A stretch of DNA of 64,000 bases. Source: Lachnospiraceae bacterium. Lineage in GTDB: Bacteria > Bacillota > Clostridia > Lachnospirales > Lachnospiraceae. Positions within the stretch are counted from its first letter, which is position 1. Each line of letters opens with the position of its first letter. The stretch covers positions 16,255 through 80,254 of the forward strand of contig JAFXXN010000192.1 in the NCBI GenBank assembly GCA_017542245.1. The letters run 5' to 3'. The notes beneath the pieces were generated by a model. It was not told where the DNA came from, searched no databases, and saw nothing but the letters and a program-made list of their open reading frames with translations. Shown here in pieces: positions 53,990-60,920 of this stretch. A program made the position numbers and the translations under genes.

Positions 53990-54017
53990 ATTATATCACC
54001 TTGAACGAAAGTGTCAA
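53990..54017 (-). promoter_or_regulatory. Promoter of iorAB
   Basis: TTGACA (54017-54012), 16 bp, TATAAT (53995-53990) on the minus strand. Confidence 0.75.
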
Positions 54018-54057: not shown

Positions 54058-54086
54058 TTGACAAATACCTCTTCTACAGATATAAT
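54058..54086 (+). promoter_or_regulatory. Consensus promoter of the LiaF-like/DHH/TIR operon
   Basis: TTGACA (54058-54063), 17 bp, TATAAT (54081-54086), a perfect SigA match. It is divergent from the iorAB promoter and drives the three following plus-strand genes, which have no internal promoter or terminator that I can see. Confidence 0.8.
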
Positions 54087-54138
54087 ATAATAGGTTTTTG
54101 TGTGTTTTAACAGGATAAAAAGAAAGCGAGGTTTTGGT

Positions 54139-54705
54139 ATGTTTTTTGGGATCTTTCCCTTTCCTTTTCTGATAATCGCTATTATCGCAATCGTATGCGT
54201 TCGAAAAAAGAATATGAACAACCGGCTCCCGGGAGACGGAAATAACCGTGGATATATAGACTATGACCGGAATATGACCTACAACGGCAGTAATTTTCCG
54301 GATAAAAACCGCTATGTGCAGGAACCCGGATTTGTTCAGAACGGCGGGATGCCGTATATGAGCGAAAACGGTGAGGATATTGTAATCGATAACAGTATGG
54401 GAAATCTAACAAGGTATCTGCAATCATCTCATTTAAGAAGTCTAAAAATAAGCAACGGTATGGGCAATTGCATAATTTACTATGACAATGTCATGGTAGA
54501 TGAGTTTGGATCAAATTTGACAATCAATAACGGAATGGGCACAGTCAAGGTTTATATTCCTCCGTTTTACAGATTCCAGATGAGTCAGAATAACGGTCTT
54601 GGAAGTATCAAGGTTCACGGCAACCCAAGTATGAACCCACAGGATCCGATGATTGAAGCATATGTTGAAAACGGTCTCGGCAAAGTTGATTTCTATTTTG
54701 GCTAA
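54139..54705 (+). CDS. Membrane-anchored LiaF-like beta-repeat protein
   Basis: 188 residues from ATG 54139 (GCGAGG 8 bases upstream). One N-terminal membrane segment (FFGIFPFPFLIIAIIAIVCV) is followed by a polar linker of about 60 residues. Then come five similar beta units: NSMGNLTRYL, NGMGNCIIYYD, NNGMGTVKVYI, NNGLGSIKVHG and ENGLGKVDFYFG. This is like the LiaF / DUF4097 C-terminal beta-helix found in cell-envelope stress proteins. It begins a three-gene operon, 14 bp before the DHH gene. The short cytoplasmic N-terminus makes the repeat domain either outside or inside depending on orientation, which the sequence does not settle. Confidence 0.7.
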   Translation: MFFGIFPFPFLIIAIIAIVCVRKKNMNNRLPGDGNNRGYIDYDRNMTYNGSNFPDKNRYVQEPGFVQNGGMPYMSENGEDIVIDNSMGNLTRYLQSSHLRSLKISNGMGNCIIYYDNVMVDEFGSNLTINNGMGTVKVYIPPFYRFQMSQNNGLGSIKVHGNPSMNPQDPMIEAYVENGLGKVDFYFG

Positions 54706-54719
54706 ACAAGGAGGATATT

Positions 54720-56225
54720 ATGTCATTCAGCCTTTCTAAATTAACAGAATATTCCAATATAGTCATACAGTGCCATGATAATCCCGATGCGGATGCATTG
54801 GCAAGTGGTTTTGCGTTAAAATGGTATCTGGATAAAAAGAAAATCCCCGCCAGGTTTATTTATAGTGGGAAAAATATGGTCCAAAAGAGTAATCTTGTGC
54901 TGATGATAAAGAGGCTCAATATACAGGTTGAATATGTTACCCAGCTTCCTAAACCGGAGCTCCTGGTCATGGTCGACTGTCAGTACGGCCAAAGCAATGT
55001 TACAAAATTTGAAGCTGATAATATCATTGTCATAGATCACCATCAGGTCTCCGGTACACTTCCGACGTTATCCGATGTCAGATCGAATTACGGCTCCTGT
55101 TCTACCGTCATCTACGACCTTTTGGCTAAGGAAGGCATTGATATCAACGAAGATCAGGATATCTCAACCGCTTTATACTATGGACTTTTAACTGACACCA
55201 ATAATTTTACCGAAATATCCCATCCTGTAGATAAGGATTTAAGAGATTTTGCGAAATTTAAAAATGCCGAGATAATCCTTTACAGAAACTCAAATCTTTC
55301 AATAGAAGAGCTCAGGATGGCGGGGGAAGCTTTAAGGAATACGGAATGCAACAGTAAATATGCTTACGGTATCATAGAAACAGAGCCCTGTGACCCCAAT
55401 ATCCTCGGTATCATATCCGATATGCTCTTAGAAGTTGATGTCATCGGTACATGTCTTGTCTACAATATCCTTCCGGGTTTGGTAAAAATCTCTGTAAGAA
55501 GCTGTATAAAAGAAGTCAAGGCTTCTGAACTTGCATCATATGTTGCAAGCGGTTACGGAGGCGGCGGCGGGCATCTTGTAAAAGCCGGCGGAACTCTTCA
55601 GCGAGATCTTTTGGAAAGGGACGGTATCGAATATACTAAAGAAGGCCTGCAGGAATTTTTCAAGAAAAGAATGGATACTTACTATGATACATCCAAGATA
55701 ATGCATGTCGGTACAGATAAAGTCGATACCACAAATATGAAACATTACAGAAAAAAAGACTGTGCATTCGGCTATATCAAGACTCGCGACTTTGCCGAGG
55801 AAGGAACCAATATTCATGTCCGTACTCTTGAAGGAGATGTTGATATAACGGTAAGCGAAAATGTCTATATTGTTATAGGTATAGAGGGCGAAATCTGGCC
55901 TATAAAAAAACAAAAATTTGAAGCGTCATATCGTGTTAATGATGAAGAATATAAGTTTGAAGGAGAATATCCCCCTTCTGTTGTAGATTCTGAAAAAGGG
56001 ATCAAGATAAATCTGCTTCCCTATGCCAGAAGCTGTGTTGCATCAGGCGGGACCGGAATATATGCTTCAAAACTTGACCACCGTGTTAAGCTCTTTACTA
56101 CTTGGGATCCGGATAAATACTATCTCGGCGTTCCGGGAGATTATCTTGCTGTAAGGGATGATGATCCAAATGACTATTATGTCATTATAGGGCGTATTTT
56201 CCCGCGAACTTATGAGGAAGCTTAA
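54720..56225 (+). CDS. DHH/DHHA1 phosphoesterase with two C-terminal PGDY-type modules
   Basis: 501 residues. The catalytic half has the DHH-family metal motifs: HDNPDADA (19-25), Asp86 in MVDCQYG, IDHHQ (105-109) and Asp159 in GLLTDTNNF. DHHA1 follows with GYGGGGGHLVKAGG (278-291). This is the NrnA/RecJ-like group that cleaves nanoRNA, pAp or cyclic dinucleotides. After about residue 330 come two modules uncommon in this family. YRKKDCAFGYIKTR to GIEGEIWPIKKQKFEASY (343-404) resembles a domain common in phage and mobile-element proteins. A second copy (about 420-501) retains PGDYLAVR. No membrane segment. Between a LiaF-like protein and a TIR protein, its role may be to remove a nucleotide signal, but that is inference. 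Confidence 0.85.
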   Translation: MSFSLSKLTEYSNIVIQCHDNPDADALASGFALKWYLDKKKIPARFIYSGKNMVQKSNLVLMIKRLNIQVEYVTQLPKPELLVMVDCQYGQSNVTKFEADNIIVIDHHQVSGTLPTLSDVRSNYGSCSTVIYDLLAKEGIDINEDQDISTALYYGLLTDTNNFTEISHPVDKDLRDFAKFKNAEIILYRNSNLSIEELRMAGEALRNTECNSKYAYGIIETEPCDPNILGIISDMLLEVDVIGTCLVYNILPGLVKISVRSCIKEVKASELASYVASGYGGGGGHLVKAGGTLQRDLLERDGIEYTKEGLQEFFKKRMDTYYDTSKIMHVGTDKVDTTNMKHYRKKDCAFGYIKTRDFAEEGTNIHVRTLEGDVDITVSENVYIVIGIEGEIWPIKKQKFEASYRVNDEEYKFEGEYPPSVVDSEKGIKINLLPYARSCVASGGTGIYASKLDHRVKLFTTWDPDKYYLGVPGDYLAVRDDDPNDYYVIIGRIFPRTYEEA

Positions 56226-56249
56226 AATCAGAAAAGGACTATATACATC

Positions 56250-59200
56250 GTGAAATATAATGCATTTATAAGCTACAGACATATGCAACTTGATATGGAA
56301 ATGGCAAAAAAAGTCCATTATGGTCTCGAGACTTACCATATCCCTAAAGCAGTGCAGAATAAAACCGGTAAAAAGAAGATTGAGCGCGTTTTCAGAGATC
56401 AGGAAGAGCTTCCGATAGGAAGCGATCTTAATGATAATATTTCAAATGCTCTCAAAAACTCCGACTATCTCATAGTAATATGTTCACCGGATACTCCTGC
56501 TTCGTACTGGGTAAATAAAGAAATAGAAACCTTTATAGCTATGCACGGCAGGGAGAAAATACTTGCAGTACTCATATCAGGAGAACCCAATGAAAGTTTT
56601 CCTGAACAGCTTCTTACCGATGACAACGGTAATCCTGTAGAACCGCTTGCAGCAGATGTCAGAGGCGCAACTCCAAAGGATCGGAAAAAGTTGTTTAAAA
56701 CAGAAATTCTCCGCCTTGCAGCACCTATCATCGGATGCAGTTATGATGATTTAAAACAGCGTCATAGGGAAAGAATACTTAAAAGAAATATTGCTATAGC
56801 TTCAGTCAGTGCCGCTGTCATAGCCATTGCAGGCACTGCTTTCGGAATATACAATGCAAATGTCGCCGACAGGATGGAAAAACTTGCAAATGAAAAATCT
56901 CAGCTTGCTGACGAGAAAACTCTTCTTGCATCCGAAAAATCCCAACTTGCTGATGAAAAGTCAGAACTTGCCGATAGAATGGAAAAACTTGCGGGGGAGA
57001 AATCCCAGCTTGCTGAAGAGAAAACCCGGCTTGCTGATGAAATTCTTCTTGAATATACCGAAAAACAGCGAAACCAGTCAAGGTTTTACGCGGAGGAAGC
57101 ACTGTCCGTATTTAAAACCGGCAACCGTGAAGATGCGGCGCTTATTGCCCTAAGCGGACTGGGTACCGATGATAATCCGCGTCCTTATGTCCCGGAAGCT
57201 GAATATGCTCTCTCTGAGATACTTTATGCATATAGCAGCGGAAGCGGACTTTCTTATGACAGAACCCTTTCACACGATATGATCGTTGAAAATATGAATT
57301 TGAGCAGCGATGGATTATATCTTACCACTGTCGATCAGGGTCATAATGTATATGTACGTGAAACCGACGGATTTAGTCTTCTGGCAAAAATACCTCCCAC
57401 AACAAAAGATAATAATTATCTTTCTAACGTGAAAGAAGCCTGTGCGGATAAAGATGGCATTTATGTTCTTAGTGACAGTAGTTTCAGTAAATATGATCTA
57501 TCCGGCAATGTTGTTTATTCTTTAAAACATGGCAGTTTTATCGGTGGTCTCATATCACCTGTCTATGGCAAAGCATTTATTGTCGGAGGCAGTGAAATAT
57601 CGATATTAGATTTAAAAACCGGAAAAGAATTAAAGAAAATAGAAAACAGTTCAGAAAACTATTTCAGTTCCGGAATAGTTTTAAGCGCAGATGGCAAAAA
57701 GCTTGCCGTTTCTCATTATCATTATACCGATGAAATCGAGGAAGGGCTTGTAAGTATAATAGATCTTTCAGACTATACAGTTTCAAGTTATGCAACTTCC
57801 ATGCCCTATATAGCGGACATGACTTTTTGTAATGATAACAGACTCGCCGTGATCAGTAATGTAACTAACTTTCAAAGTGACCAGTTGTTCTTGGTTGATC
57901 TGATCCAGCCCGATCAGGAACGTTTATGGAGTGCAGAAATAAATGCTCATTTACAGGATTCCGTCTCATTTAGCGTTTTGTCTGAATCAAATATCATAGG
58001 AGACGATCATTTTCTGACAGTAGTTATAGATACCGATATTTATACATATGATCTTTCGGACGGTAAGCTTATAGCCTCTGCAAACCTTCCTTCTCATGCG
58101 CGTACTCTCAACCTTGTCGAAGGGAAATCAACCGCCTACATAGGATATTACAACGGAGATATAGATGTTGTAAACGCCCTTGAAGGAACTATTTCTGCAG
58201 GCAGGACTATTAATACAAACGTTGCAATCAGTAAAATGGAGATCATATCAAACGGAATCATTCTGCTCTCTCATGCTTCCAATAATATATGGGTAATGAA
58301 ATATCATACCGCCCCTGATCTGGAAGTGATTGCGAACCTTGATAAATCTTCATATGCAATCGGAGTATCCCCGGATTCAAACTATTTTGTCACAGGCGAA
58401 AACAGTTCAAGGATATGTCACTTTTTTGATAATTCCGGAAAGCTGCTTTACACTCCGGATGGTTCAGATAAAATTCCCATCGGCTACAGCTTTAGGGACA
58501 ATCTGTTTGTTATTGCTGATTATGACGGCTTTACGGAAGTTGATCCTTTTAATGCCAAAAGTCAAAAATATCTTTTCAGCGACTTGGGATTTGAACGGTT
58601 GGTAAGTAATATTTCTTTTTCATCGACCGGAAAATATGCAGTTTTATGGGGACAGAATTACATAGGAGTTATAGACTTAACGGATAAAAAATTAGTTTAC
58701 TCAGAAAAAAGCACTGCAGTTGTGGGCTGTTGCGCAGTGTCTCAATCGGAGGATCTGCTTCTGGTTTCACGTACCGGAGAGAATCTGAATATTATTGATT
58801 TAAAAAGCGGAGATGTAAAAATACATGCGGATGAATCGCTGAGAGCTTTATCAAATACTTACTCAACCAGATATATCCACATAAGCCCCAATGAAAAGTA
58901 TGCTGCATTTGCTTGTTCCGACGGGAATGTCAGAATTCTTGATCTGTCATCTAATGCTGATATCCTCTGTTCCATTCCGCTTACAGCAGTCAACCATTGT
59001 TTCATATCCTTCTCGAACGATGAAAATTGCATTTTCCTTCAGGGAGATGATTATAAACTTAATATCTGGAAACTGTTACAAGGTAGTGATGGCAAAACTT
59101 TAAACGCTGAATATGCCGGTTCCGTGGACGACCTCTATAAGATTTCATACAGTGTTGAAGATAACGATGGCTATATTGCCTTTAGTAATTCATATTCAAC

Positions 59201-59414
59201 ATTGCTTTTAGAGCCGAAAAACTACAGCCGTGTAGCTTTCGCAGATGCAGGAACCACATATCTTCCGAGTGACAAATCGTTTATATTGTATAAGAATAAT
59301 TCTTTATATAAGACGCATTATAAAGATTTTAAACAGCTGATCGCTGAAGTAACCAATCAGTTCCCGGATTCAAATTTAAGCGAACAAAAAAAACAGGAAT
59401 ACAACATTGATTAG
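56250..59414 (+). CDS. TIR-transmembrane-coiled coil-beta propeller protein
   Basis: 1054 residues starting at GTG 56250 after AAAAGGA. Residues 1-160 are a TIR domain (YNAFISYRHMQLD, VFRDQEELPIGSDL, SDYLIVICSPDTPASYWVNKEIETF); Glu91 in SYWVNKE is at the catalytic position of NADase TIRs. One membrane helix (about 180-202) is followed by eight perfect heptads of the EKSQLAD type (208-263), a helical segment (270-335) and a WD40/PQQ-like propeller to the end with repeated blades. The predicted topology puts TIR inside and the propeller on the other side of the membrane. Such proteins are common in Lachnospiraceae but poorly studied; NAD cleavage, signalling or phage defence are all possible. 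Confidence 0.88.
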   Translation: MKYNAFISYRHMQLDMEMAKKVHYGLETYHIPKAVQNKTGKKKIERVFRDQEELPIGSDLNDNISNALKNSDYLIVICSPDTPASYWVNKEIETFIAMHGREKILAVLISGEPNESFPEQLLTDDNGNPVEPLAADVRGATPKDRKKLFKTEILRLAAPIIGCSYDDLKQRHRERILKRNIAIASVSAAVIAIAGTAFGIYNANVADRMEKLANEKSQLADEKTLLASEKSQLADEKSELADRMEKLAGEKSQLAEEKTRLADEILLEYTEKQRNQSRFYAEEALSVFKTGNREDAALIALSGLGTDDNPRPYVPEAEYALSEILYAYSSGSGLSYDRTLSHDMIVENMNLSSDGLYLTTVDQGHNVYVRETDGFSLLAKIPPTTKDNNYLSNVKEACADKDGIYVLSDSSFSKYDLSGNVVYSLKHGSFIGGLISPVYGKAFIVGGSEISILDLKTGKELKKIENSSENYFSSGIVLSADGKKLAVSHYHYTDEIEEGLVSIIDLSDYTVSSYATSMPYIADMTFCNDNRLAVISNVTNFQSDQLFLVDLIQPDQERLWSAEINAHLQDSVSFSVLSESNIIGDDHFLTVVIDTDIYTYDLSDGKLIASANLPSHARTLNLVEGKSTAYIGYYNGDIDVVNALEGTISAGRTINTNVAISKMEIISNGIILLSHASNNIWVMKYHTAPDLEVIANLDKSSYAIGVSPDSNYFVTGENSSRICHFFDNSGKLLYTPDGSDKIPIGYSFRDNLFVIADYDGFTEVDPFNAKSQKYLFSDLGFERLVSNISFSSTGKYAVLWGQNYIGVIDLTDKKLVYSEKSTAVVGCCAVSQSEDLLLVSRTGENLNIIDLKSGDVKIHADESLRALSNTYSTRYIHISPNEKYAAFACSDGNVRILDLSSNADILCSIPLTAVNHCFISFSNDENCIFLQGDDYKLNIWKLLQGSDGKTLNAEYAGSVDDLYKISYSVEDNDGYIAFSNSYSTLLLEPKNYSRVAFADAGTTYLPSDKSFILYKNNSLYKTHYKDFKQLIAEVTNQFPDSNLSEQKKQEYNID

Positions 59415-59485
59415 GAGTTGATCTAAACCCAATTCATATCTATAAACACTTACATAGTTTACTTGACAACCCCTATAAAATGCAT

Positions 59486-59519
59486 GCGGCAGGGATTTCC
59501 CTGCCGCGTCTTTTCTCAT
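59486..59519. terminator. Terminator between the TIR gene and the PD-(D/E)XK gene
   Basis: GCGGCAGGGA (59486-59495) and TCCCTGCCGC (59498-59507) form a perfect 10-bp stem with a 2-base loop, followed by GTCTTTTCTCATTTTTTT on the plus strand. It ends the operon begun at 54058. The reverse strand has only a weak T run. Confidence 0.85.
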
Positions 59520-60481
59520 TTTTTTACTCCATTATTTAATCGGCTCTTCAATTCTTTTATCTGCTCAAGAGCGTCTGAAAGTTCTTTTTCCAAAGCATCC
59601 GCACGGGATTTTTCTTTTAAAGTATTGGCCATTTCAAATTCTCGTCCTTCCTCCCATGCTTCTTCTCTTTCCATTTTTATGTGTTTTTCTTCATCATACT
59701 CAGTCAGTAACATCATTTTCACCTCCGCCCGGTTTCCGACAAGGAACTTCTTTATAAGAAAATCCTCCGGCATCTCATCTATAGTCCTGTCTATAGCAGA
59801 ATCAAGGTCCATACTCTTCTCCTGATATTTACGAATCTTATCTACCAGCCATGCGTACTCTTTTAAAGGTTTACAGGCATCCATTAATTTCTTATTCTTA
59901 CCATAATTGATATTCAACATGGTTACCAAAACTTCTATATCGCCATTACCGTCATAAGCATCACTCAGTTTTAAAATCTTTTTCTCCGGCTGCTCCATCT
60001 TGCCGTTATAAAAACAGATACACTTAGGTCTTGGTATCGATTGAAGTTTACTACTGAATTTGTTATATTTGCTGGTAGCTGTGTATTTATCATACAGGGC
60101 ACCTGCATATACAAGAAATCTCAATGGCATATTCGGATTAAAGGATGACTGTCCTTCCCACAGGTTCATTTCAAAACTGACTATGAACGACATATCGTTC
60201 TTCATCCTCATATAAACAACATCTTCTATAGTGTTAAAAACAAGTTCATCAGGATTTGTATAATTCGTGCCGTTTATGGCATTATACAAAGAAAGTGTCC
60301 AGATTTTATTTTCCGGATTTCCAAAGATAAACTTGAAAAGTCTGTCCTTAGTTTCTCTGTTAGCCTCCTTTAGCCTTTTCTCGTCAACAAGTGTCTTGTA
60401 AGTTTCCTTCTCACTTTCTGCCTTAGCAAGTCTTTTCTTGAGTTCCTCAATCTGTCTGATAAGTTCTTCATTAACATCCAT
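59516..60481 (-). CDS. PD-(D/E)XK nuclease-like protein (Rpn/transposase_31-like)
   Basis: 321 residues from ATG 60481 with GGAGGAG 9 bases upstream. After an N-terminal coiled coil, residues 45-230 show the pattern of Lachnospiraceae proteins annotated as PD-(D/E)XK transposase/Rpn: RLFKFIFGNPENKIWTLSLYNAINGTNY, VYMRMKNDMSFIVSFEMNLWEGQSSFNPNMPLRFL, and a C-terminal coiled coil. The MNLWEGQS segment replaces the more usual E-Q-S nuclease motif, so activity is uncertain. Related Rpn proteins promote RecA-independent recombination or serve in defence. Lies at the border of accessory DNA next to the TIR operon. Confidence 0.8.
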   Translation of the reverse strand: MDVNEELIRQIEELKKRLAKAESEKETYKTLVDEKRLKEANRETKDRLFKFIFGNPENKIWTLSLYNAINGTNYTNPDELVFNTIEDVVYMRMKNDMSFIVSFEMNLWEGQSSFNPNMPLRFLVYAGALYDKYTATSKYNKFSSKLQSIPRPKCICFYNGKMEQPEKKILKLSDAYDGNGDIEVLVTMLNINYGKNKKLMDACKPLKEYAWLVDKIRKYQEKSMDLDSAIDRTIDEMPEDFLIKKFLVGNRAEVKMMLLTEYDEEKHIKMEREEAWEEGREFEMANTLKEKSRADALEKELSDALEQIKELKSRLNNGVKK

Positions 60482-60920
60482 TACTGTCATCTCCTCCTGT
60501 AAAATATAATGCCGGCTCGTTTTACATGATTTTAAATAAAAACATGTAAATGCAGGAGATGATAGTTTATTCTACTCCTGCTCAACTAACCATAAAGGGA
60601 AAAGCAAGAGTGAATTTGAAAAAAATAAACCTAAAGAAAATTAATAATCGTGTTTCAATCAAAAAAATAAAAATCTGTTTCAAAAAATATTGGTTCAAAT
60701 AAGTACTCTTTGCCTTTGATACCATTATAATATAATGATTTTCGGGTTTTGTCAAGGTAAAAAGATAGGTAGGGTTCTCGATATTTCAATCAAAAACTCT
60801 AGCAAGCAAGAATCATATCCATGTATGAAAAAATGTTTGCAAACACTTTTTTAACATACATTTTAATGTTTGCAAACATTTTTTGTTCTTCTTTGACTAT
60901 TTAGAAACATGTCGGTAACC
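60482..60920. other. AT-rich intergenic region with paired palindromes
   Basis: 439 bp with no credible gene. It holds the inverted repeat TTTACATG (60521-60528)/CATGTAAA (60543-60550) close to the PD-(D/E)XK start, runs of A/T, and the two TGTTTGCAAACA sites near the esterase end. No strong promoter for the PD-(D/E)XK gene was recognised. Confidence 0.6.
60834..60878. repeat. Two copies of the palindrome TGTTTGCAAACA, 33 bp apart
   Basis: TGTTTGCAAACA occurs at 60834-60845 and 60867-60878. The second extends to a 16-bp perfect palindrome (60865-60880). The 33-bp spacing is three helical turns. Both are followed by T runs on the minus strand, so they may also end the esterase transcript. Confidence 0.7.

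Follow-up and report, generated by a model that had tools for sequence, protein, structure and literature searches.

A DHH-DHHA1-PGDY2 gene and the gene of a receptor-like TIR protein are recurrent neighbors in gut and rumen bacteria

Known relatives and layout of the locus

Animal Toll-like receptors combine an external sensor domain, one membrane helix and a TIR domain inside the cell, and TIR effectors are common in defense. A protein of similar predicted build, with an external sensor, a single membrane helix and an internal TIR domain, is encoded in the DNA analyzed here, a 64,000-nt stretch from a Lachnospiraceae bacterium (GCA_017542245.1, contig JAFXXN010000192.1, 16,255-80,254, forward strand) referred to as the window. 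In contrast to Toll-like receptors, its TIR domain lies at the N-terminus, which reverses the order of the parts, and a propeller stands in place of the LRR; we found no evidence for common descent of the whole protein with these receptors. The domain also matches the ThsB_TIR model and thereby resembles Thoeris (ThsB TIR plus ThsA), but it belongs to a membrane propeller protein whose partner is a DHH-DHHA1-PGDY2 protein, and no ThsA-type partner was found with Pfam, NCBIfam or PADLOC among the three genes of the locus and their downstream neighbor.

Stand-alone DHH-DHHA1 enzymes (TM1595, Rv2837c, DhhP, NrnA and the catalytic part of GdpP) resemble this partner in the predicted fold of residues 1-328 and in their active-site residues, whereas the window protein adds tandem PGDY modules and a TIR partner. 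One report cites MAD, a membrane-associated DHH-DHHA1 nuclease of Sulfolobus islandicus, and describes such a nuclease as an off-switch that removes an immune nucleotide (PMC7854544). For the window protein a comparable role is a proposal; the targets described there are CRISPR cyclic oligoadenylates, while the window pair has a TIR partner and carries its membrane helix on that partner. MoxR-vWA-beta-propeller ternary conflict systems are described as having a third component whose N-terminal part varies and is followed by a membrane segment and then TPR or propeller at the C-terminus (Kaur et al., 2020; PMC7159879), a layout shared by the window protein with TIR as the N-terminal part. The likeness extends to related loci, since MoxR-AAA, VWA and LRR-like genes lie between DHH and TIR in L072, L077, L080 and L100 (in L077 by gene sizes only), and MoxR/VWA-like genes follow DHH in L104. 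The VWA protein of L080, however, has no propeller match, and the AAA protein there scores 25.0 with bpMoxR, under the cut-off of 27; among the three window genes and their downstream neighbor, Pfam finds neither MoxR nor vWA matches.

The three genes lie on the plus strand (Table 1), separated by gaps of 14 and then 24 bp and flanked by one promoter and a shared terminator, as the initial annotation had described. Promoter-like sites (27 vs. 22.1 expected from shuffling) and terminator-like sites (7 vs. 5.2) occur in the region at near-chance numbers; the promoter of the locus is one of only two in the region with a full consensus score. The first gene could also begin at GTG 54100, but ATG 54139 is the likely start because the GTG lies just 14 bases past the promoter end. 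The downstream neighbor (59516-60490), which had been called a nuclease-like Rpn gene, is not recognized as such, having no over-cut-off match in Pfam or NCBIfam and none in PADLOC.

Table 1. Features of the locus, in window coordinates.
Feature	Position	Strand	Basis or remark
Sigma-70-type promoter, TTGACA-17-TATAAT	54058..54086	+	12/12 consensus positions, 17-base spacer
LiaF-like single-span protein, 188 aa	54139..54705	+	PF09922 at 25.1 bits (cut-off 29, hence weak)
GGAGG, likely ribosome-binding site of DHH gene	54710..54714	+	Read from sequence
DHH-DHHA1-PGDY2 protein, 501 aa, predicted metal-dependent phosphodiesterase	54720..56225	+	Domain matches, fold prediction, alignment
DHH catalytic domain	54756..55184	+	PF01368 E 1.8e-14, over cut-off
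DHHA1 domain, GGGGHLVKAGG motif	55359..55604	+	PF02272 E 4.4e-6, over cut-off
PGDY module A, phage-related	55695..55955	+	phrog_419; profile match to phage proteins; structure model
PGDY module B (PGDYLAVRDDD), weak repeat of A	55956..56222	+	A aligned to B with hhalign: probability 39%, E 3e-4
TIR-TM-coiled coil-propeller protein, 1054 aa, GTG start	56250..59414	+	ORF, domain matches, alignments
TIR domain, W87xxxE91	56250..56699	+	TIR_2 and ThsB_TIR over cut-off; alignments
Membrane helix (residues 182-200) whose positive side faces TIR	56793..56849	+	Hydropathy
Heptad coiled coil; in relatives variable in length or absent	56859..57053	+	Alignment
Propeller region, fast-diverging	57240..59339	+	WD40/propeller-type models
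Terminator-like hairpin	59484..59509	+	11 pairs

Domain composition of the two paired proteins

The window protein contains both domains of DHH-DHHA1 phosphodiesterases together with the metal-binding Asp/His residues, and in the alignment H19, D23, D25, D86, D106, H107, H108 and D159, as well as K288 of DHHA1, are invariant in 120/120. Its predicted fold resembles pApA, c-di-AMP and nanoRNA phosphodiesterases, to which the DHH core is closest. The protein is a predicted phosphodiesterase; this modeled fold does not single out one substrate. We know of no DHH enzyme that acts on cADPR-type products.

The tandem PGDY modules, initially annotated as phage-like, do relate to phage families (phrog_419; 52/54 relatives), although comparison of the structure model gave no match among solved folds. 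The PGDYG family PF14083 does not match the window proteins at E 1 and is found in 0/60 genomes, where the control likewise lacks any match; viral proteins named PGDYG compare with the predicted fold at probabilities up to 0.92, but at E 0.09 and worse. All seven PGDY proteins without DHH in the family sample (7/7) follow TIR and cyclase-like genes, and in this second cassette TIR adjoins a class III cyclase, accompanied in L173 by a GAF-GGDEF protein. At another locus (L049), a GGDEF-EAL gene overlaps DHH-PGDY2.

The domain list, membrane helix and sensor-like build first assigned to the TIR protein likewise hold. TIR_2 scores 44.2 against a cut-off of 28 bits, hydropathy finds the helix in a receptor-like layout, and stretches of the C-terminal region hit WD40/propeller-type models at E values as low as 6e-22, nearly all of these hits falling below the cut-off of the model concerned; two long partners (L039, L044) have no propeller by Pfam. 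On hydropathy and charge, the TIR domain is probably inside and the propeller outside the membrane. Across 53 partners, mean identity is 73% for TIR and 26% for the propeller. The catalytic glutamate of TIR NADases is present, and the protein is a putative NADase. E91 is kept in 47/47 long and 15/15 mixed TIR domains in the alignments; L038 and L043, whose partner TIRs are short, do not retain W87.

Recurrence of the pair in related genomes

DHH-DHHA1-PGDY2 and TIR-TM-propeller genes are recurrent neighbors that keep their catalytic residues in both proteins. The PGDY gene has a TIR gene at most two genes away at 62 of the best 80 database loci, as does DHH-PGDY in 24/48 cases of the family sample. 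The hosts of the pair include many related gut and rumen bacteria; one copy of the TIR protein is that of Butyrivibrio sp. WCD3002 (L088). Rare adjacency in related genomes would, according to the initial annotation, have spoken against a joint role; for these two genes adjacency is common.

An accidental grouping under one promoter would fit the 19/48 DHH-PGDY2 genes of the family sample whose fetched stretch lacks a TIR, with both flanks at least 1.5 kb. This is nevertheless barely credible, as the adjacency recurs with either gene first and on either strand, and is specific to the PGDY2 form (23/42, vs. 0/21 for DHH-DHHA1 genes without it, p 5e-6). Conversely, 17/43 genomes with a matching TIR have no PGDY2, and therefore each gene can stand alone. 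In L060, the closest DHH relative of the window (65%), no TIR follows directly downstream, and the upstream flank is 1.2 kb long. The distances of the paired proteins correlate (r 0.90), which speaks for infrequent exchange of partners but would follow from common descent by itself as well.

Of the three-gene module originally proposed, the pair stands, whereas the LiaF-like gene was found at none of 106 other loci (0/106). It apparently shares a transcript with DHH and TIR in this genome, where one promoter and one terminator-like site flank all three, and an envelope stress operon with the LiaF-like protein as sensor is conceivable on this basis. Given that absence, and a LiaF C-terminal domain below cut-off in both libraries (25.1 vs. 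29 in Pfam, 25.6 vs. 57 in NCBIfam), we regard such an operon as very improbable. Weak LiaF-like matches occur in 4/149 other genomes, none on the contig of a PGDY gene. The LiaF-like gene is outside the recurrent pair, and the joint unit consists of two genes, not three.

Candidate roles of the pair

We tentatively favor, at somewhat below even probability, a two-gene signaling pair in which an envelope-sensing TIR receptor generates a nucleotide signal that the DHH-PGDY enzyme limits. The propeller would sense an envelope or extracellular cue, which the conserved juxtamembrane part would relay to the TIR domain inside; TIR would then act on NAD+, or another nucleotide, to yield the signal. 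The soluble DHH-DHHA1-PGDY2 protein would bind and degrade this signal, or a messenger under its control, and so reset the switch. PGDY2 may be the part that recognizes TIR or its product, because it is common to the TIR-linked versions.

Alternatively, TIR may be a scaffold and not an enzyme, docking DHH-PGDY2 at the membrane and setting its activity on housekeeping messengers (c-di-AMP, pApA or nanoRNA, for example), with messenger level as the output. This would suit the nearest relatives of the DHH core, the many DHH-PGDY2 genes without TIR nearby, the cyclase and GAF-GGDEF neighbors of the second cassette and the overlapping GGDEF-EAL gene. A pure scaffold, however, would not need the E91 that all long and mixed TIR domains retain, and we consider it rather less probable than the signaling pair.

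Anti-phage defense, in which TIR would drain NAD+ upon infection and DHH-PGDY2 would act as an off-switch comparable to MAD, the nuclease of CRISPR type III, accords with the frequency of TIR effectors in defense, the reported DHH-DHHA1 off-switch, the intervening MoxR-AAA, VWA and LRR-like genes, which recall conflict systems, and the PGDY modules of phages. The genomic context covered here does not support it. Among 95 flanking genes, taken from loci up to L098 and other than MoxR/VWA, the Pfam families listed (25 of 81) were mostly housekeeping, and PADLOC matches resembled in kind those in 95 control genes; the defense-island enrichment for which a search had been suggested did not appear in this set. 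Among the window proteins, PADLOC-DB 2023 gave no strong core-gene match (best PDC-S66, E 6.4e-10, best stretch 58 TIR residues) and none for the DHH or LiaF-like protein. Confirmed relatives were found in 0/15 stretches of viral_contigs, no relative in the plasmid set covered >80% of the query, and the two full-length relatives in the phage set are both unverified faecal scaffolds. As the correlated distances also suggest seldom-swapped partners, with the reservation about descent made above, we hold defense to be unlikely.

A bolder version of the signaling pair, which we regard as more doubtful still, would make it a counterpart of Toll-like receptors: the external, fast-evolving propeller would drive a TIR enzyme, and PGDY would read TIR-made NAD-derived nucleotides, tied either to a DHH eraser or to a DHHA1-like remnant beside the class III cyclase. 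Phage PGDY modules may act on the same signal.

The recurrent pair ties a receptor-like TIR protein to a predicted nucleotide phosphodiesterase in gut and rumen bacteria, and offers a functional lead for the PGDY modules, whose matching phage families have no known function. It looks like a variant form of TIR nucleotide signaling, whose chemistry we infer. If this is true, TIR signaling would serve the sensing of the outside, and not phage defense alone.

The DHH-PGDY2 and TIR genes as recurrent neighbours

The DHH-PGDY2 gene and the TIR gene form a recurrent pair whose catalytic residues are kept and in which the TIR link is specific to the PGDY2 form. Searched against 150 genomes of the family at a threshold of E 1e-10, the DHH protein found a match in 53, with near-full coverage of its 501 aa in 22 matches (own copy included) from 21 genomes, while PGDY2, its tandem phage-related C-terminal modules A and B, gave 57 matches in 53 of 299 family genomes. 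The family sample comprises the neighbourhoods of 55 of these 57 matches, leaving out the own copy and a 42 aa fragment. A second set, 80 loci from named genomes, represents the best 80 of 480 relatives and is biased towards the nearest ones; it partly covers the same contigs, so that the two sets are not independent.

Among these best 80 of 480 relatives, a TIR gene lies within two genes of the PGDY gene in 62 loci, mostly as a direct neighbour on the same strand (59 loci, 51 downstream and 8 upstream, at most 107 bp apart or overlapping, including L096, which ends at a contig edge). A direct TIR neighbour is divergent in 2 loci, and in 1 it lies on the opposite strand with one small ORF intervening; TIR is separated by at least three genes in 4, absent from the stretch in 10 and absent next to a short flank in 4. 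In the family sample, the 48 DHH-bearing PGDY2 genes have TIR within two genes in 24 cases, further off in 1 and absent in 19, with 4 short flanks lacking it, and all 7 PGDY2 genes without DHH have TIR within two genes. Without near-identical or odd-length rows, and with the own copy included, the counts are 23 with TIR, 19 without and 4 with short flanks. Among the matches listed, 21 DHH-DHHA1 genes without PGDY2 served as a control, and none had a TIR gene, either within two genes or in the whole stretch. The difference in adjacency is significant (23/42 versus 0/21; Fisher 5e-6). The refuting condition set in the initial annotation, that the genes are rarely neighbours in related genomes, does not hold for these two.

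At the genome level (n=299), PGDY2 occurs in 53 and the TIR-TM-linker form in 43, both in 26 versus 7.6 expected (p 3.8e-12, rising to 1.3e-11 once the own genome is excluded, by a statistic that ignores phylogeny). In a tree built from 120 DHH-PGDY2 proteins, TIR adjacency requires at least 17 changes, 7 rows of unknown state being uncounted, and the link has therefore been gained or lost many times; the relative orientation of TIR also varies. Distances of 54 paired proteins are correlated (Mantel r 0.897, 0 of 2000 permutations), a result which common descent alone could yield. Few genomes outside the family carry PGDY2: among 398 genomes of the phylum 7 have it, and 3 of these belong to the family. 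Of the four outside genomes, one (L221) has TIR two genes from DHH-PGDY2 and three have no TIR in the stretch.

Gene layout and the LiaF-like gene

The window sequence contains the three genes with their gaps of 14 and 24 bp, along with the consensus promoter and hairpin, and DHH, DHHA1, TIR_2 and ThsB_TIR passed curated cut-offs in the domain-model search. The draft assembly of the window genome has 8.58% contamination; since its relatives typically carry the pair, this hardly matters. For the LiaF-like gene, ATG 54139 is the likelier start. The gene had been included in the module; this membership is not upheld, since the gene was found in 0 of 106 other loci (phmmer, E 1e-4) and gave weak matches in 4 of 149 other genomes, never on a contig with a PGDY gene. 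Its LiaF_C match falls below both curated cut-offs (Pfam and NCBIfam); in the window genome the gene may share a transcript with the pair. The adjoining gene, read as Rpn-like in the initial annotation, gave no Pfam or NCBIfam match above cut-off. By eye, the second promoter faces an apparent indolepyruvate oxidoreductase operon.

Coordinates of further features in the window and in fetched loci
Feature	Position	Direction or source	Basis
Second sigma-70-type promoter, 12/12	window 53990-54017	opposite to the three genes	promoter scan
324 aa gene	window 59516-60490	convergent	Rpn-like in the initial annotation
KpS8 PGDY-module protein	L249:3384-3845	Klebsiella phage	profile match
C-terminal HAD phosphatase-like domain fused to DHH-PGDY2	L177:7949-10294		by eye
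C-terminal HAD phosphatase-like domain fused to DHH-PGDY2	L189:4201-6423		by eye
GGDEF-EAL-GAF gene overlapping the DHH-PGDY2 start by one base	L049:8435-12624

The TIR protein and a second cassette

All 47 long relatives and all 15 mixed ones carry the catalytic E91; W87 is kept in 22 of 22 sequences of one alignment and in at least 90% of the 47 long relatives, and is not kept in L038 and L043, whose TIRs are short. The WxxxE motif is tied to cADPR-type products. The Lachnospiraceae include Coprococcus eutactus, Dorea formicigenerans and Roseburia intestinalis. PMC9092222 gives ADPR or variant cADPR as products of TIR_2 domains from gut bacteria such as these three. Hydropathy places a membrane helix in 69 of 75 TIR proteins, and in 66 of the 69 the side facing TIR is the more positive one. 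Mean identity of the window protein to 53 partners is 73% in the TIR domain, 81% in the juxtamembrane part and 26% in the propeller; the coiled coil varies in length, and several relatives have a short one or none. In the C-terminal region there are hits to WD40-type models, almost all of them scoring below their own cut-offs. Four long partners (L035, L037, L039, L044) show no match to the window's propeller, and in L039 and L044 Pfam finds nothing besides TIR, so their C-terminal parts are unproven propellers. Short TIR partners of 311-506 aa also occur (L038, 506 aa, with DUF6273; L169, 472 aa; L126, L128, L043 and L190), and PGDY2 is therefore linked with TIR, not with the propeller. We infer the membrane topology, the NAD chemistry and a reset by the DHH enzyme.

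In the family sample, each of the 7 PGDY2 proteins that lack DHH comes after TIR and cyclase-like genes (L048, L170, L172, L173, L176 and L178; in L056 the cyclase is fused to PGDY2). The class III cyclase-like protein, which has a receiver-like part, is assigned by a profile built from L048 and L056 and by Pfam for L048, L056 and L173. Upstream of TIR lie a GAF-GGDEF protein and a xylose-isomerase-like (TIM-barrel) protein in L173 and a hybrid histidine kinase in L172, and these neighbourhoods point to signalling. By hhalign, the DHH-less proteins have an N-terminal part akin to DHHA1 (95%, E 3e-8, versus 0.2, 0.3 and 0.9% for DHH, PGDY2 and TIR segments), with an altered glycine motif; the common theme is therefore DHHA1-PGDY2 with TIR, accompanied by a phosphodiesterase or a cyclase. 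The cassette looks like a multi-messenger operon.

Phage relatives, defence and signalling

The two modules, A and B, form a weak repeat. The predicted model of the tandem (pLDDT 92.7) found no convincing match among solved structures; predicted viral proteins match it (best E 7e-8, TM 0.59 by query; E <=0.001 for 5 of them), and a phrog_419 match is present in 52 of 54 relatives. A module-A protein of Klebsiella phages KpS8 and P8734 is matched by profile at E ~1e-8 (for 1000 sequences), whereas single-sequence tblastn gives only E 0.3-0.6. In KpS8, a gene annotated as Sir2-like is followed by an annotated DNA ligase and then directly by the PGDY-module gene, an order that hints at a possible NAD link of phage PGDY. 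No confirmed relative was found on viral contigs (0 of 15 stretches).

The flanks gave no support for enrichment in defence islands: the Pfam families of 95 flank genes are mostly housekeeping among the 25 of 81 shown, and PADLOC matches in 95 flank genes, a set drawn from loci up to L098 and free of the MoxR/VWA genes, do not differ in kind from those in 95 control genes. Between DHH and TIR in L072, L077, L080 and L100 lie DUF2201 VWA-like, MoxR-type AAA (bpMoxR 25.0 versus a cut-off of 27) and LRR_5 genes, assigned by Pfam in L080, by sequence likeness in L072 and L100 and by gene sizes in L077; in L104 they stand beside DHH-PGDY2, but not between DHH and TIR. The genes of these four loci recall the ternary conflict systems with propellers described in PMC7159879, where the third component combines a membrane segment with a propeller. 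For a DHH-DHHA1 enzyme as an off-switch, the nuclease MAD, as cited in PMC7854544, offers a precedent. A defence role of the pair is possible, but general signalling is better supported than defence.
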